Shown piece by piece: positions 31,677-38,701 of a stretch of 64,000 nt of DNA. The notes beneath the pieces are model-generated. The model was not told where the DNA came from. It searched no databases and saw only the letters and a list, made by a program, of their open reading frames with translations. The stretch covers positions 372,001 through 436,000 of the forward strand of contig NZ_JAALJI010000002.1 of assembly GCF_011064595.1 (NCBI RefSeq). The letters are read 5' to 3'. Position 1 is the first letter of the stretch; each line of letters begins with the position of its first letter. The position numbers were made by a program, and so were the translations under genes. The DNA comes from Paludisphaera soli. GTDB taxonomy: Bacteria > Planctomycetota > Planctomycetia > Isosphaerales > Isosphaeraceae.

Positions 31677-32534
31677 ATGCGGATGCGGAAGATCGACCGG
31701 AGGGGATTCCTGGCGGCGGCCGGCGGCCTCGCCGCGGCCTCGGCCCTGGCGGCCGACGCCCCCAAATGGAAGCGAGCCTTCATGCTCGGCGGGCTCACTA
31801 AGGGCCCCGCGCTGCCGACGTTCAAGATGCTCAAGGAGGCCGGGTTCGAGGGGGTCGAGCTGATCAGCCCCAACGAGATGGACATGAAGGAGGTCCTCGC
31901 CGCGCGCGACGAGACCGGCCTGATCATCCACGGCGTCTCCGGCGCGGCGCACTGGCAGAAGCCCCTCTCCGACCCCGACCCGGCCGTCGTGGCGGAAGGC
32001 ATGGCCGCCATCAAGCAGGAGTTCCTCGACTGCAAGGCCTACGGCGGCGACACCGTCCTGGTGGTCCCGGCCGTCGTCAACAAGAAGGTCTCGTACCGCG
32101 AGGCCTGGGAGCGCTCACAGGCCCGCATCCGCGAGCTGATCCCTTTCGCCGAGGAGGCCGGGGTGAAGATCGCGGTCGAGGAGGTCTGGAACAAGTTCCT
32201 CCTCAGCCCGATCGAGTTCGCCCGCTACATCGACGAGTTCGAGAGCCCGACCGTCGGCGCCTACTTCGACGTCGGCAACATCGTCGAGTACGCCTACCCC
32301 CAGGAGTGGATCCGCGAGCTGGGCAAGCGCATCCTCAAGATCCACATCAAGGAGTACGCCAAGCCCAAGCGATTCGGCTACCCGCTCGGCGAGGGCGAGA
32401 TCGACTGGGCCGAGGTCAAGCAGGCCCTGATCGACGTCGGCTACGAAGGCTGGATCACCGCCGAGGTCGGCCTGGGCGACCTCGACGCCATGAAGGACGT
32501 CGTCGCCCGCATGAACAAGCTCCTGTTCAGCTGA
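31677..32534 (+). CDS. Tat-exported sugar-phosphate isomerase/epimerase-like protein
   Basis: 285 residues. A twin-arginine signal (DRRGFLAAAGGLAAASALAA) precedes a xylose isomerase-like TIM barrel: MLKEAGFEGVELISPNEMD, VKIAVEEVWNKFLLSP, TVGAYFDVGNI and ILKIHIKEYAKPKR supply the Glu, Asp, His and Glu metal ligands typical of the fold. The start at 31677 has GAAAGG seven bases upstream; an ATG six bases later is possible. It follows gatB by 14 bases and may share its transcript. The substrate is unknown. Confidence 0.9.
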   Translation: MRMRKIDRRGFLAAAGGLAAASALAADAPKWKRAFMLGGLTKGPALPTFKMLKEAGFEGVELISPNEMDMKEVLAARDETGLIIHGVSGAAHWQKPLSDPDPAVVAEGMAAIKQEFLDCKAYGGDTVLVVPAVVNKKVSYREAWERSQARIRELIPFAEEAGVKIAVEEVWNKFLLSPIEFARYIDEFESPTVGAYFDVGNIVEYAYPQEWIRELGKRILKIHIKEYAKPKRFGYPLGEGEIDWAEVKQALIDVGYEGWITAEVGLGDLDAMKDVVARMNKLLFS

Positions 32535-32713
32535 CGAGGGGACGACCGCGAAATCGCGACGACGCCGGCCGCCTCGCCCCTCGGGACCGGGCGGTCGGCG
32601 TCTTGCTTCGCGCGAATCGGGGACTTTCGGCGAGAAATCCGCATTCGTCCGGGGCCGGATCCGCATAATACACAGGAGCACCTGATCCCGACGGGACGAG
32701 GGCCGGAGTCGCG

Positions 32714-33700
32714 ATGATCGAGCGGGCCACGGACGCGATCTTGCTGAAGCGATTCGCGGAGGAGCGGGAGGAATCCGCCTTCGCGGAGATCGTGGAACGC
32801 CACGGCCCGCGCGTCCGGCGCGTCTGTCGGCGACTCCTCCGGTGCGAGCACGACGTCGAGGACGTCTTCCAGGCCACCTTCCTGACCCTGGCCATGCGAG
32901 CTTCCGACGTCGCCTGGCGACCCTCCGTCGGCGGCTGGGTGCATGAGGTCGCCCGACGCCTCGCCCTGAGCGCCCGCGGCGAGATCGCCCGCCGCCGACG
33001 CCGCGAGACGCCCGTCTCGAACCTCCTGCCGGGCTTGCACTTCGGCGAATCGGGGATGCTCCCCGACCCGACCTGCCCGCTCTCGCGGTTCACCGACGAG
33101 GTCGAAAGCCGCGAGGTCCGCCTGGCGATCGACGGAGCGGTCGAGGATCTGCCGCCGAAATATCGCGACCCGGTCGTGCTCTGCTACCTGGAAGGCCACA
33201 CCAGCCAGCAGGCCGCGGCCCGGCTCGGCTACCCCGCCGGCTCGATGTCGCGACGGCTGGAGAAGGCCCGGGGCCTGCTCCGCAAGCGGCTGGTCGGACG
33301 GGGCGTGACGCTCGGCCTGCTGCTGGCGACGGCCGCCTGGCTCGCATCCGCGTCGCGGGGGCCGAACGAGGGCCCGCTTCCTCGAACGATCGTCGCCCCG
33401 CCCCGCCCCGCTTCTCCCCAAACTGTTTCGTCCGACCGAACCGAACTCGGCGAACTTCTCGCGGCCCTCGAACGTAACGAAGGAGCGGGCGTGGATCGGC
33501 TTCGCCTCCGCCTGGCGGTCGAGCACGCTGACGAGGCCGCCGACCGGGCCCCGGCGGACCGGCGGGCGGCGCTCCTGGGCCTCGCGGGTGAGACGAGGTT
33601 GGCGGCGCTCGACTGGCCGGGCGACGCCTCCGGCGCCGTCTCGACCGAAGTCTCGCGGCTGCACGGGACCTGCGTCCGCTGCCACGTCGTGCTCCACTGA
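32714..33700 (+). CDS. ECF sigma factor with membrane anchor and C-terminal CXXCH motif
   Basis: 328 residues. Sigma region 2 is at about 20-65 (SAFAEIVERHGPRVRRVCRR, DVFQATFLTLAMRA) and region 4 at about 140-192 (LPPKYRDPVVLCYLEGHTSQ, RRLEKARGLLRKRL). The basic end of region 4 runs into one hydrophobic helix (about 198-214, GVTLGLLLATAAWLA), then about 110 helical residues ending in C320-V-R-C323-H324 four residues from the C-terminus. By the positive-inside rule that tail faces outward, where heme is attached to C-x-x-C-H. The layout of a helical region with terminal heme motif recalls cytochrome c'. The next genes are the cytochrome c assembly proteins ResB and CcsA. A weak TAATAC -10 lies at 32666. 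Confidence 0.88.
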   Translation: MIERATDAILLKRFAEEREESAFAEIVERHGPRVRRVCRRLLRCEHDVEDVFQATFLTLAMRASDVAWRPSVGGWVHEVARRLALSARGEIARRRRRETPVSNLLPGLHFGESGMLPDPTCPLSRFTDEVESREVRLAIDGAVEDLPPKYRDPVVLCYLEGHTSQQAAARLGYPAGSMSRRLEKARGLLRKRLVGRGVTLGLLLATAAWLASASRGPNEGPLPRTIVAPPRPASPQTVSSDRTELGELLAALERNEGAGVDRLRLRLAVEHADEAADRAPADRRAALLGLAGETRLAALDWPGDASGAVSTEVSRLHGTCVRCHVVLH

Positions 33701-33734
33701 CGGGGCGCGGCGGCCCCCGCCCCCGACGAGGCTG

Positions 33735-33762
33735 TTCGCCCGCGGGGGCCCTGGTTTAGAAT
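33735..33762 (+). promoter_or_regulatory. Candidate promoter for the ResB-CcsA operon
   Basis: TTCGCC (33735-33740), a 16-base spacer and TAGAAT (33757-33762), about 100 bases before the ResB start. The -10 is good, the -35 poor; called from sequence alone. Confidence 0.35.
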
Positions 33763-33860
33763 CGACGTGATCTCGGGGCGGCCGGCGACGGCGCGTCTCG
33801 GCCCGCCCGGCTCCCCCCCGACCTCGACCCCGATCCTCCCTCCTCGGCAGGTGCGACACC

Positions 33861-36026
33861 ATGGCGACGGCCACCAAGAAGCCCCCCGGCCCCTCCCCCT
33901 CGGCGCCCGGCCCCGGGCGATCGAGCGGCGGGCGGATCCTGGGCGTGATCGACGAGATCTACAAGTTCCTCGCGTCGCTCAAGCTGGCCGTGCTCTCGCT
34001 GTCCAGCCTGGCCGCCGCGCTCGCGTTCGCCACCTGGTTCGAATCCAGCTACGGCACCCGCGCCGCCCAATCGCTGGTCTACAAGAGCGCCGGGTTCGCG
34101 GTCCTGCTCGCGTTCCTGGGGATCAACATCCTCTGCGCGGCGACGATCCGGTTCCCCTGGAAGAAGCGGCAGACGGGGTTCGTGGTGACGCACGCCGGGT
34201 TGCTCGTGCTGATCGTCGGCTCGTACATCCACTTCAAGTCGGGCGACGAGGGGATGGTGGGGATGCTGGAAGGCGAGTCGCGGAGCGAGATGCTCCGGAC
34301 CGACGCGCCGATGTTCCGGGTCCGCGAGATCGACCCGCACACCCAGCAGCCCTCGGCCAACTACGAGCTGGCTTTCGACGAGTCGGGCCCGTTCCCCTGG
34401 GGGGACGGCCAGCCCCGGATCCGCAACCTGTTCGACCTGGCCGTGAACCGGCTCAGCGGGGGCCGGCTGCCGGCCGCCCGCGACGAGTCCGAGGTCCTCA
34501 GCAAGTCGGGCGACCCGTTCCGGTTCGTCGTCAAGCAATACCTGCCGGCCGCCGCACCGGCGACCGTCCGGCTCGAAGACCCCGCCGGGCAGCCGATGGC
34601 CCGGATGCTCCTCCAGTTCAAGGCCCCGGGCATGCCCGAGGCGCGGCTGGCGAACGCCGAGGACGCCGCCCAGTGGTTCCAGCTCGACCGCCGTTTCTAC
34701 CGCACGGGGCGGTCGGACGGCATGCCGGCGTTGGTCTCGTTCGCCTCGGTCGACCGCCCCGAATACGTCGAGGACTTCCTCAAGCCCCCGCTCGACGCCA
34801 GCGCGGTGGGGGTCGCGCGGTTCCGCTACACGGATAAGGCCGGGAAGGAGCGGAGCCACGACTTCCCGCTCCAGACGCCGGCCGACCAGCCGATCCCGCT
34901 CCCCGACAGCGACCTGACCGTCTCCCTCCAGAAGCTCGCCAGCTTCCCGACCGCCGAGGCCGGCCTGGCCCGCGTGGTGGGCGAGGACGCCATCCCGATC
35001 GCCGTGTTCGACGTCCACAAGGGGGACGGCCCCGTGGTGGAGCACGTCGCGATGGGCTCGATGCCGATGTTCCCCAACATCATCCCCCGCCCGGCCGCCG
35101 ACGGCGGCAAGCCCCCCGAGGCCCTCGTCCGCATCAACCTGATGCTCACGCCCGACCTCGCCCCCCAGTCCAACGGCCGGTTCGGGCAGGTCGACGTTCT
35201 GGCCGGGCCCGACAAGGCGCTCTACTACCGCGTCTTCGGCCGCGGCAAGGACGGCAAGCCCGAGCTGAGGACCGCCGGCCCCATCGAGGCCGGCAAGTGG
35301 GTCGACGCCTTCGGCGGCGGGGACGCCGCCATGTCGATCAAATTCCAGGTCGCCGAGTACCTGCCGGCGGCCGTCGAGAAGCGGATCTTCCGCCCCGTCT
35401 TCCTCCCCGGCAACCAGATGGACCAGGCCATCCCCGCCTGCCTGGTCGAGCTGAAGGTGGGCGACAAGGCCGAGGAGGTCTGGATCCAGCGCAGCGAGGC
35501 CCTCGACGCGCCGGTCTTCCGCCCCGTGCCGATCGCCGGCCGCCGCTTCGAGATCGCCTACGACGCCGACCGCCGCCCCCTGGGGTTCGACCTCAAGCTC
35601 GAGGATTTCGAGGTCGGCTTCGAGCCGGGGACCGAGCAGGCCACCAAGTTCGTCAGCCAGGTGAAGGTCGACGACCCGGCGAAGGGGGTCCGCGACCAGC
35701 AGCACACGATCTCGATGAACGAGCCGATGACGCACCGCGGCTATACCTTCTACCAGATGCGCTACTCGCCGATCGTCGACCCCCGCACCAACCAGCGCAC
35801 CGGGCAGTTCCAGTCGGTCTTCCAGGTGGGGAGCAACCCCGGCCGGCCGATCATCTACGCCGGCAGCCTCCTGATCGTGCTGGGGACGCTCCTGCAATTC
35901 ACCATGCGGGCCGGCCTCTTCTCGGACGGCGGCAAGCGGGAGCGCGAGCGGGCCGCCAAGAAGGCCGGCCTGCCCACGCCCGTCGAGCCGACGCGGCCGG
36001 CGCAGGCCGATGAGGACATCCTGTGA
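33861..36026 (+). CDS. resB: ResB-like cytochrome c biogenesis protein
   Basis: 721 residues. Three N-terminal membrane helices (LKLAVLSLSSLAAALAFATW; AGFAVLLAFLGINILCAA; VVTHAGLLVLIVGSYIHF), a large outward domain (about 115-650) and one C-terminal helix (IIYAGSLLIVLGTLLQF) match ResB/Ccs1 of system II. ResB with CcsA exports heme and attaches it to apocytochromes. FETWFESSYGT-type sequence after helix one and NEPMTHRGYTFYQMRY before the last helix are family signatures. The stop overlaps the CcsA start (TGATG). Confidence 0.9.
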   Translation: MATATKKPPGPSPSAPGPGRSSGGRILGVIDEIYKFLASLKLAVLSLSSLAAALAFATWFESSYGTRAAQSLVYKSAGFAVLLAFLGINILCAATIRFPWKKRQTGFVVTHAGLLVLIVGSYIHFKSGDEGMVGMLEGESRSEMLRTDAPMFRVREIDPHTQQPSANYELAFDESGPFPWGDGQPRIRNLFDLAVNRLSGGRLPAARDESEVLSKSGDPFRFVVKQYLPAAAPATVRLEDPAGQPMARMLLQFKAPGMPEARLANAEDAAQWFQLDRRFYRTGRSDGMPALVSFASVDRPEYVEDFLKPPLDASAVGVARFRYTDKAGKERSHDFPLQTPADQPIPLPDSDLTVSLQKLASFPTAEAGLARVVGEDAIPIAVFDVHKGDGPVVEHVAMGSMPMFPNIIPRPAADGGKPPEALVRINLMLTPDLAPQSNGRFGQVDVLAGPDKALYYRVFGRGKDGKPELRTAGPIEAGKWVDAFGGGDAAMSIKFQVAEYLPAAVEKRIFRPVFLPGNQMDQAIPACLVELKVGDKAEEVWIQRSEALDAPVFRPVPIAGRRFEIAYDADRRPLGFDLKLEDFEVGFEPGTEQATKFVSQVKVDDPAKGVRDQQHTISMNEPMTHRGYTFYQMRYSPIVDPRTNQRTGQFQSVFQVGSNPGRPIIYAGSLLIVLGTLLQFTMRAGLFSDGGKRERERAAKKAGLPTPVEPTRPAQADEDIL

Positions 36027-38701
36027 TGAAGACGCCCCCCGACCGGTCCGCCCCGAACCGACCGACAGCCTTCCCCGGGAGATCCGCGATGAGACGACAC
36101 GGACGACTGCTCTTTGGACTGGGCGTCTTCGCGCTCGTGGGGGCCGCGACCGCCGCCGTCACCCCCTCGGCGGGGGACGGTTCGAACGGCGGCAAGCTGG
36201 GCGTGGGCCCGGCTTATGACCGCGTCGGCCGCGTGGCCGTCATGCACGAGGGGCGCGTCAAGCCGCTCGACACCGTCGCCCGCGAGGAGGTCAAGCAGGT
36301 CTTCGGCCGCGAGTCGATCAAGCTCCTCGACGACCGCAACGAGGTCGTCGAGACCTGGGGACCCGTCGGCGCGTTCGTCGACTGGATCGCCCGGCCGGAG
36401 TTCTGGGACTCGCAGCCGTTCATCCTCGTCGACTACCTGCCGCTCAAGCGACAGATCCTCCTCGGCTCCGCCCGGGCCAAGTTCGCGGCCATCGCCGCCC
36501 GGCCCGAGACGCCGGCCCAGGATAAGGAACGGCTCGCGATCCTGGCCGACGACGACAAGCTCGACGCCGCCGTGCTGCTGAAGTACCTGGAGGCCTCGAA
36601 GATCGAGGAGGTCGACCGCAAGGCCCTTCAGGAGGTCGCCGCCAAGCTCCACGAGGACCACAAGTGGCTCTCGCCCGACGAGCTGGACGAGGCCAAGATC
36701 CGCCACGGCGACCACGACGAGGCGTTCATGGAGTGGGTCTCCCAGCTCGACGAACAGCGGCGCAAGTTCGACGAGAACCCGATGTCGGCCGCCCGGCTCA
36801 CCGAGGTCGAGCGCCGGGCGATCGACGTCGGCAAGCGGCTGGCGAGCTACAAGGCCTATTCCGGCGACGAGATGCGGTCCGCCGGCCTGATCCGCATCAT
36901 GCCCCGTCCGTTCAGCCGCCAGGCGCTCGATTTCTACAAGGAGGTCATCCCCAAGGCGCGCACCGCCGCCAACCTCCGCGACCTCGCGCCGGTCGAGTTC
37001 GACACCCTCAAGGCGCTCGACACCTACTGGAACGACGTCCCCAGCGACGACCGCCACGACCCGGGCGAGGACGCCGCGTTCGACAAGAAGTTCGCCGCCT
37101 GGCTCGCCGAGAACTCGGTCTGGGTCCCGCTCAAGGTGCTCCTGAAGGCCGAGCCCGAATCGCTCGTGAAGGCCGGCTACCCGGAGGCGCAGGCCCGCGC
37201 CTTCCTGGACGCCTACAAGGCGTTCGAGAAGGCCGAGAACGAGAAGCCGGGGGCGGTGCCCATCGAGGCGGCCGAGGCCCTGCTGGCCGCGTCGCGCGCC
37301 CTGGGCGAGGCCGTGAACCCCGAGTACTACCCCAGCGCCGCGGCCGTCGATCGCGAATCGCACTTCAACGCCGTCAACCCGTTCTACCAGGCCCCGTTCG
37401 CCTACGGCGCGTCCCTGATCCTGCTGGCGATCGCCCTGGGCTTCTCCGGCGGCCGCGTCCGTGAGATGGGGACCGCCGGGAAGACGCTCTACTCCCTCGG
37501 CATGCTCGGCCTCGTCGCCGGCATCGCCCTGGAATGCTACGGCTTCTACCTGCGGATCCTGATCACGGGCTGGGCGCCGGTCACGAACATGTACGAGACC
37601 GTCATCTGGGTCGCCCTGGTGGCCGCGGTGCTGGCCCTCGCCTTCGAGCTGATCTACCGGCGCACCTTCACCGCGCTGGCCGGGGCGGGCGTCGCGCTCC
37701 TGGGGACGATCACCGCGGCCAACGTGCCGCTCCTGGACCCCAGCATCAAGAGCCTCCAGCCGGTGCTGCGGAGCAACCTCTGGCTGACGATCCACGTCCT
37801 GACGGAGGTCTCCAGCTACGCCGCGTTCGGCCTGGCCTGGGCGCTCGGCCTGATCGCGACGATCTACTACCTGACCGCCACCTACCGCCGCTCGCCGTCC
37901 TACGGCGAGCTGGCCTCGCCACTCGTCCCGGCGATGCCGCTGCTCTCCATCGGCGTCGGCGGGGTGGCCGCGTCGTACGGGGCGTTCGGGCCGGAATGGA
38001 CCATGAGCGACGCCCTCTTCTACGTCTTCGACGTCATGGCGGTCGTCGGCGGCGTCGTCGCCGCGTCCGCCCTGCTGGCCCTCACCGGCGAGGCGGTCAA
38101 CCGCCTGACCCACCGCGACATCGACGGCCCGAAGGTCGACCCGTTCGCCGACCCCGCGCCGGCTTCCGCAGCCGCATCCTCACGGCCGAGGCCGACGGTC
38201 GAGGAGATCCGCGCGATGGCCGCGCCGGCGACCCTCGACGCCCGCGGCCAGGCCATGCAGGAGACGGCGGCGATGATCAAGCCGCTGTCGAACTTCATCT
38301 ACCGCGCCATGCAAGTCGGCGTCCTCCTGATCGCCGCCGGGACGATCCTCGGCGGCGTCTGGGCCGATTATTCGTGGGGCCGGTTCTGGGGCTGGGACCC
38401 GAAGGAGGTCTGGGCGCTCATCACGCTCCTGATCTACCTCGTGCCGCTCCACGGCCGATTCGCCGGCTGGGTCAGCACCTTCGGCCTGGTCTTCGCCTCG
38501 GTCGTGTGCTTCCTCTCGGTCGTCATGGCCTGGTACGGCGTGAACTTCGTCCTCGGCGTGGGCCTGCACAGCTACGGCTTCGTCGAGGGGGGCTCGCAAG
38601 GCGCGATGAGCCTCATCCTGTCGGGGATGATGGCCCTGCCGATCGGCGCCGCCTGGCGTCGCCACCTGGGCCGGGCCCGCCCGGTCGAAGTTCAGGCGTG
38701 A
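36026..38701 (+). CDS. ccsA: CcsA/ResC-type cytochrome c biogenesis protein
   Basis: 891 residues from the ATG that overlaps the ResB stop; an ATG at 36089 with GGGAGA before it, which puts a signal-like helix first, is a good alternative. The N-terminal about 430 residues form an extra soluble domain between a first helix and the membrane core. The C-terminal half has 8 or more helices with the heme-handling tryptophan-rich motif WGRFWGWDPKEVWALI (about residue 785-800) and flanking histidines (TIHVLTEVSSYAAFG; PLHGRF). With ResB it forms the system II synthetase. The last 89 bases overlap the convergent DUF309 gene. Confidence 0.92.
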   Translation: MKTPPDRSAPNRPTAFPGRSAMRRHGRLLFGLGVFALVGAATAAVTPSAGDGSNGGKLGVGPAYDRVGRVAVMHEGRVKPLDTVAREEVKQVFGRESIKLLDDRNEVVETWGPVGAFVDWIARPEFWDSQPFILVDYLPLKRQILLGSARAKFAAIAARPETPAQDKERLAILADDDKLDAAVLLKYLEASKIEEVDRKALQEVAAKLHEDHKWLSPDELDEAKIRHGDHDEAFMEWVSQLDEQRRKFDENPMSAARLTEVERRAIDVGKRLASYKAYSGDEMRSAGLIRIMPRPFSRQALDFYKEVIPKARTAANLRDLAPVEFDTLKALDTYWNDVPSDDRHDPGEDAAFDKKFAAWLAENSVWVPLKVLLKAEPESLVKAGYPEAQARAFLDAYKAFEKAENEKPGAVPIEAAEALLAASRALGEAVNPEYYPSAAAVDRESHFNAVNPFYQAPFAYGASLILLAIALGFSGGRVREMGTAGKTLYSLGMLGLVAGIALECYGFYLRILITGWAPVTNMYETVIWVALVAAVLALAFELIYRRTFTALAGAGVALLGTITAANVPLLDPSIKSLQPVLRSNLWLTIHVLTEVSSYAAFGLAWALGLIATIYYLTATYRRSPSYGELASPLVPAMPLLSIGVGGVAASYGAFGPEWTMSDALFYVFDVMAVVGGVVAASALLALTGEAVNRLTHRDIDGPKVDPFADPAPASAAASSRPRPTVEEIRAMAAPATLDARGQAMQETAAMIKPLSNFIYRAMQVGVLLIAAGTILGGVWADYSWGRFWGWDPKEVWALITLLIYLVPLHGRFAGWVSTFGLVFASVVCFLSVVMAWYGVNFVLGVGLHSYGFVEGGSQGAMSLILSGMMALPIGAAWRRHLGRARPVEVQA

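Follow-up and report, generated by a model that had tools for sequence, protein, structure and literature searches.

To our knowledge, little is understood of how cells gauge their capacity for cytochrome c maturation. In the window analysed here, a 64,000-nucleotide stretch of the Paludisphaera soli genome, the gene of an ECF sigma factor that ends in a heme-attachment motif lies directly before the genes for system II cytochrome c assembly. The question raised by this locus is whether the sigma factor itself reports heme attachment. Our preferred reading, to which we give a probability just short of one half, is that the protein is a membrane-tethered sigma factor which is itself a cytochrome c and which reports cytochrome c maturation.

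The sigma gene (32714..33700, + strand) is an open reading frame of 328 codons for amino acids, with an ATG start and no internal stops. Sigma-70 region 2 (residues 26–87; 32789..32974, + strand) scores 43 bits against Pfam PF04542 (cut-off 24), and region 4 (residues 137–191; 33122..33286, + strand) scores 41.1 bits against PF08281 and 28.9 bits against PF04545. Both regions exceed the Pfam curated cut-offs, identifying the protein as an ECF sigma factor, and TIGR02937 is matched with 75.6 bits (cut-off 42.9). Region 4 is followed by a hydrophobic helix (residues 197–213; 33302..33352, + strand) that is alike in 18/18 orthologs. It is the most hydrophobic 17-residue stretch after residue 150, with a mean KD value of 1.66, which is the lowest among 18 orthologs (maximum 2.63) and would be borderline taken alone. 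Six K/R residues precede the helix, compared to one D/E, and 4–7 basic residues precede the hydrophobic stretch in all 18 orthologs. From hydropathy and flanking charges, an N-in/C-out orientation is predicted, which would place the C-terminal domain outside the cytoplasm, in keeping with the outward-facing region proposed in the initial annotation.

Approximately 115 residues follow the helix, and the protein closes with C320-V-R-C323-H324-V-V-L-H. The CVRCH heme-attachment motif (residues 320–324; 33671..33685, + strand) therefore lies four residues from the end. An AlphaFold2 model of the full protein (mean pLDDT 68.9, pTM 0.33) has, at moderate confidence, four helices after the membrane helix (residues 235–254, 262–277, 281–299 and 311–326); the membrane stretch is part of a modelled helix spanning residues 175–213. 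Residues 235–328 (33416..33697, + strand) are assigned as a putative cytochrome c'-like four-helix domain, predicted to lie outside, based on this model and on kinship through orthologs. The next two genes are resB (33861..36026, + strand; PF05140, 66.8 bits) and ccsA/resC (36023..38701, + strand; PF01578, 97 bits), both over the Pfam cut-off, and the upstream neighbour encodes a xylose-isomerase-like TIM-barrel protein (AP_endonuc_2). No anti-sigma gene occupies either position beside the sigma gene; such a neighbour is frequent among ECF sigma factors, though some lack one. Reading frame, Pfam regions and hydropathy thus agree with the initial description of an ECF sigma factor that continues into a helix and a C-terminal CXXCH domain, encoded before ResB and CcsA and lacking a separate anti-sigma factor at the adjoining positions.

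The sigma-helix-cytochrome architecture was found in 19 genomes, 18/45 of the window's family (f1) and 1/95 of family f3. A search of 59 related genomes yielded 14 orthologs, all in f1, one of which (G004) contains a stretch of N. A C-terminal profile run against all 45 f1 genomes found 17 carriers, four of them new, and missed G004. Among 297 genomes of the class, one carrier outside f1 was added (G290, family f3), and a search of the 95 f3 genomes gave, besides G290, no match spanning region 4, helix and domain. In a search of the phylum, with nine candidates scored per genome and misses possible, the fusion was detected in 2/392 genomes, both of f1; three further genomes had short frames of 179–183 aa. 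Sixteen stretches with partial matches (ten in f3, six in f1) were considered as hidden fusions, and all proved to be cytochromes c' without a sigma part. No fusion was found in 27/45 f1 genomes, some of them incomplete (the G060 contig begins inside resB), which suggests that the sigma-cytochrome gene is dispensable. A second kind of sigma-cytochrome fusion was seen in a Planctomycetia MAG (L139:739-5262, + strand; contig JAEUIF010000927.1), where two CXXCH motifs accompany a hydrazine-synthase-alpha-like domain (PF18582, 46 bits) in an ECF frame of 1508 residues.

Conservation of C320, C323 and H324 had been put forward as a check on the heme-attachment motif, and CXXCH is kept in 19/19 orthologs, which rules out a chance occurrence. 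By comparison, it is found in the extension of 1/89 other ECF proteins. In an alignment of 17 sequences that runs from region 4 to the C terminus, the two cysteines and the histidine are the only invariant residues past the helix, and the C-terminal domains of 16 other fused sequences are 16–54% identical to that of the window. An assembly chimera is also ruled out, since the fusion is seen in many genomes at graded levels of divergence. In a tree with 88 other ECF proteins, which leaves out G004 and whose bootstrap had not settled, the sigma parts of 18 orthologs group as one clade (support 100/98). In 5/18 orthologs measured (L006, L010, L012, L163 and L170, from G021, G034, G009, G061 and G062), the frame extends approximately 100 residues beyond CXXCH, as a putative tail.

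A promoter-like motif, GCATTCG-N15-GCATAAT (32641..32669, + strand), starts 73 nt before the sigma ATG. A variant of GCATTYG-N15/16-RCATNA, usually after A-rich sequence, is present at −65 to −89 in 18/18 orthologs with a readable start, a count that is partly by construction because the pattern was drawn from the ortholog sequences after viewing. With the G004 copy (L083), where the motif is at −78, the total is 19/19, and the presence of this motif upstream of the sigma gene in all carriers is new here. Dinucleotide shuffles gave a mean of 0.08 matches out of 18, and the motif was found in 0 of about 97 paralogs tested. Two further observations depend less on how the pattern was drawn. The full form seen in the window's genus, GCATTCG-N15/16-RCATAAT, recurs unchanged in G290, although it is found in none of the 12 other orthologs outside the genus. 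Scanning of 104 ECF upstream regions returned six strict matches, all of them ortholog copies (L079–L081 and L083–L085), ruling out a general ECF promoter motif; the single additional hit, to a looser form, is at −377 in L089. No copy of the motif occurs in the 300 nt downstream of the sigma gene (0/18) or in the 500 nt before resB in the two Singulisphaera genomes.

The strict pattern, GCATTYG-N15/16-RCATNAT, has one match, the sigma gene's own, in 5/6 congeneric genomes and three matches in the sixth; in the window's genome (7.97 Mb), no strict match other than the sigma gene's site occurs. A conserved motif present as a single copy in 5/6 congeneric genomes suggests that the sigma gene is autoregulated, with a probably small regulon and with predicted binding of the sigma factor to the motif. 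It should also be noted that the strict pattern recovers the sigma gene's own site in only 7/18 f1 carriers, and that some strict match occurs, at a chance-like level, in 24/45 f1 genomes, non-carriers included. Therefore, the strict pattern is no marker of the system, and from its occurrence as one copy in the genus little can be concluded about target sites that are weaker. A relaxed pattern occurs at 26 places in the six congeneric genomes, six of which are the sigma gene. Rough gene calling downstream of these places, in which L321 was not readable and weaker sites would be missed, gave no recurring target but the sigma gene.

By sequence, the outer domain is a relative of cytochrome c'; the kinship is carried by profiles, and the fold agrees. 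This relation had been suggested from the window alone, and Pfam, profile comparison and Foldseek on an ortholog domain all lend it support. In the G290 ortholog (L171), a single open reading frame exceeds the Pfam cut-offs for the sigma-70 regions and for PF01322 (27.5 vs 26.5 bits). At E up to 10, PF01322 is matched by 6/10 C-terminal domains, with L008 scoring highest (26.4 bits vs a cut-off of 26.5); the window's own protein gives no match up to E = 1. Profiles of the fused and stand-alone domains match each other with an E-value of 7.9e-11 over 108 columns, and in 19/19 orthologs CXXCH lies in the last helix near the C terminus, as in cytochrome c'. Stand-alone relatives encoded in genomes of the window's family carry the same CXXCH motif, and 11/11 of those aligned (from L066–L076; L077 and L078 were unused) match PF01322 at E up to 0.1.

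The stand-alone cytochromes c' (L066–L076 and L332–L347) have apparent signal peptides and often Gly/Pro-rich segments. L069 consists of two tandem cytochrome c' domains, and contig C730 of G290 has three stand-alone cytochrome c' genes in a row. Five carriers (G009, G021, G059, G061 and G062) also encode stand-alone cytochromes c', and two PF01322 matches over the cut-off are found elsewhere in the window's genome.

The C-terminal fold was taken from the domain of the Singulisphaera GP187 ortholog (L008), which is 22% identical to that of the window and which, aligned with 28 relatives, gave a model with a pLDDT of 82.7; the four-helix bundle is thus a predicted fold. Foldseek with the model placed Thermochromatium cytochrome c' first and Kuenenia Kusta0087/0088 second; further top rows were more cytochromes c' and engineered b562 (E 0.02–0.1, probability 1.00), with no match under E 0.001. 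The best VIA-align match was 6r6o, which is Kusta0087/0088 (Z 12.6), with cytochrome c' 2ccy at 10.6 and unrelated helical bundles at similar values (e.g. p130Cas, Z 11.3). Given the similar scores of unrelated bundles and the E-values above 0.001, the fold alone is not proof of kinship. A PDB profile search, weak when taken alone, returned a designed helical protein first, engineered cytochrome b562 at E 4e-4 and cytochrome c' at E 0.24. When the full-length window model was used in a PDB search, the best 50 rows were sigma factors and transcription complexes. Kuenenia is a planctomycete, and its Kusta0087/0088 is presumably NaxLS. NaxLS is described as a cytochrome complex (PMC8388095).

In classical cytochromes c', the heme is bound covalently and is five-coordinate. 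A methionine occupies the distal position in 12/12 stand-alone rows compared to 9/17 fused rows. In the stand-alone cytochromes c' it sits in helix 1 (12/12 aligned rows). Among congeneric rows it is found in 1/5 (G003), and the window's domain is without it; L171 carries a methionine near the distal position, displaced by the alignment. Since the distal methionine is variable while CXXCH is invariant, heme attachment, rather than distal-ligand chemistry, appears to be what evolution fixes. The window's own domain is a reduced cytochrome c': it is shortened between helices 3 and 4, has no methionine and no PF01322 match, and follows the weakest membrane helix.

These features bear on whether the domain is instead a gas or redox sensor, with a constitutive heme that senses NO, CO, O2 or redox state and a sigma factor that controls respiratory genes, its position beside resB-ccsA only securing heme loading. 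Cytochromes c' bind NO and CO, several of the cytochrome c' structures among the Foldseek matches are NO or CO complexes, and the best VIA-align match is a cytochrome complex. The distal methionine of 9/17 fused rows suggests a redox-type heme in those proteins, but this position is not conserved, being without methionine in 4/5 congeneric rows including the window, and CXXCH persists even though the domain of the window's genus is reduced. Furthermore, the relaxed motif search, which would miss weaker sites, gave no second recurring target in the genus. We consider a sensor of this kind unlikely, although it is a serious candidate.

The degenerate state of the window's domain also raises the possibility that CXXCH is not a heme site in vivo, and is instead a disulfide or metal switch, or the leftover of a decaying cytochrome that merely tethers the sigma factor. 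In two pairs that include the window, dN/dS is 0.44–0.50 for helix, linker and domain compared to 0.20–0.30 for the sigma part, i.e. approximately 1.5- to 2.5-fold higher, as would fit such decay. However, dN/dS is below 0.51 in all seven pairs, the histidine is as invariant as the cysteines across 19 genomes, and the stand-alone relatives with the same motif match PF01322 without exception. A role without heme is therefore improbable.

The sigma gene lies directly before resB on the same strand in 16/19 carriers (the window, 11/13 flanking loci, G059, G061, G062 and G063). The sigma-resB gap is 132–261 nt in the last four and approximately 460 nt in G004. In G290, the sigma gene is followed by a lipoprotein gene and then resB, all on the same strand; this contig ends inside the ResB frame, before the place of a possible ccsA. 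The lipoprotein gene-resB order is common to 20 other f3 genomes read, and the sigma gene is absent beside this operon in 18/18 other judgeable loci. The contigs of G653 and G264 end within approximately 400 nt before the lipoprotein gene and allow no verdict, and in G056 an ECF gene lies approximately 5.6 kb away on the other strand. In two families whose operons are built differently, the sigma gene is thus found beside a ccs locus. The two Singulisphaera genomes are exceptions: there, it is far from resB, among oxidoreductase-like genes (by reading). Therefore, the expectation that orthologs always neighbour resB/ccsA is false as worded, holding directly for 16/19 carriers and, with a single gene between, for one more. 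In G011, the isomerase gene and resB adjoin, with the sigma gene missing between them.

Upstream of resB is a probable −10 element, TAGAAT (33757..33762, + strand). A sigma-70 consensus scan found no promoter, so the call rests on conservation: TA[GAC][AC]AT occurs within 300 nt after the sigma gene in 14/15 loci with resB adjoining (shuffled mean 0.98). As a −10-like element also precedes resB in G011, which lacks the sigma gene, resB can evidently be transcribed without the sigma factor, whose gene resembles a cassette placed ahead of an existing resB promoter. Between the sigma gene and resB, the + strand showed no terminator-like site, and Rfam gave nothing at gathering thresholds for 32400–34000. 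That the sigma gene is an independent autoregulated cassette and a chance neighbour of resB, with targets elsewhere and cytochrome assembly uninvolved, would fit its variable occurrence in the interval from the isomerase gene to resB (G011), the Singulisphaera sigma genes away from resB and the −10-like element of resB itself. This is highly doubtful, given that the gene is found in two families at ccs loci that differ in composition, itself carries a cytochrome domain, and was the only target to recur in six congeneric genomes.

How, then, might a membrane-tethered sigma factor report cytochrome c maturation? The C-terminal domain, outside the membrane, would be a substrate of the neighbouring ResB-CcsA (system II) ligase and would receive covalent heme. 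Attachment would alter the folding or stability of the domain, and the attachment state would decide between a sigma part retained at the membrane and one that is available. The simplest route may be that the apo domain is unfolded and that this leads to proteolytic release of the sigma part, for which the regulated proteolysis of RseA offers an analogy (PMC8103513). Free sigma factor would recognise the motif at 32641–32669 and raise its own transcription, and transcripts from this promoter would add to those of resB-ccsA by read-through. Through such a feedback loop, the capacity for cytochrome c assembly would be matched to demand, and a separate anti-sigma factor would not be needed. Its sign could be either way, with the apo or the holo form active.

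That transcription responds to heme attachment is something we infer: the motif at the sigma gene's own promoter and the variable distal methionine with invariant CXXCH make such a response likelier, and the sigma-70-like −10 element of resB makes it less certain. It is quite possible, if tentative, that the sigma factor is a c-type cytochrome and a substrate of the very ligase encoded in the operon that it controls, with a regulon of essentially one transcription unit. If true, the cell would count successful heme attachments outside the membrane and turn them straight into transcription, without recourse to an anti-sigma factor. As a single protein that joins a sigma factor to a heme-attachment domain predicted to lie outside, it is a directly testable candidate; carriers are probably available in culture (Aquisphaera insulae and Singulisphaera acidiphila), and the clade-specific promoter motif simplifies a reporter assay. 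For ECF factors extended at the C terminus, few of whose signals are known in Planctomycetes, cytochrome maturation would be a novel type of input.

A search of titles and abstract openings, without subscription papers, returned no ECF sigma factor-cytochrome fusion. ECF factors with C-terminal extensions are known; the cytochrome input proposed here would be unusual and new among them. The known kinds include SnoaL_2, TPR and the metal-responsive CorE extensions (PMC8103513). As in those proteins, a domain on the sigma factor's own C terminus takes the place of a neighbouring anti-sigma factor. Unlike those proteins, whose extensions are cytoplasmic, the factor described here has a membrane helix, its domain is predicted to lie outside, and this domain is a cytochrome.

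In the planctomycete Tuwongella, ECF factors, most of them with WD40 repeats, were recovered in detergent-soluble fractions (PMC8567305). These WD40 factors belong to the same phylum and have sister sigma sequences; the nearest paralog in our tree, L094, is of the WD40-extended kind (by reading). However, the domain fused here is a cytochrome c' of approximately 95 residues, its helix comes straight after region 4, and a promoter motif of its own precedes the gene, which lies mostly at a cytochrome assembly locus. The domain shares with the cytochrome c' family (PF01322) and with Kusta0087/0088 a predicted four-helix bundle whose last helix, close to the C terminus, holds CXXCH. It differs from that family in being joined to a sigma factor through a membrane helix, in its unconserved distal residue and in its reduction in the window's genus. 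Finally, control of system II (ResB-CcsA) biogenesis in Bacillus is exerted by ResD-ResE. The same ligase operon is concerned here but, unlike ResD-ResE, the candidate regulator would be among the proteins to which this ligase attaches heme.
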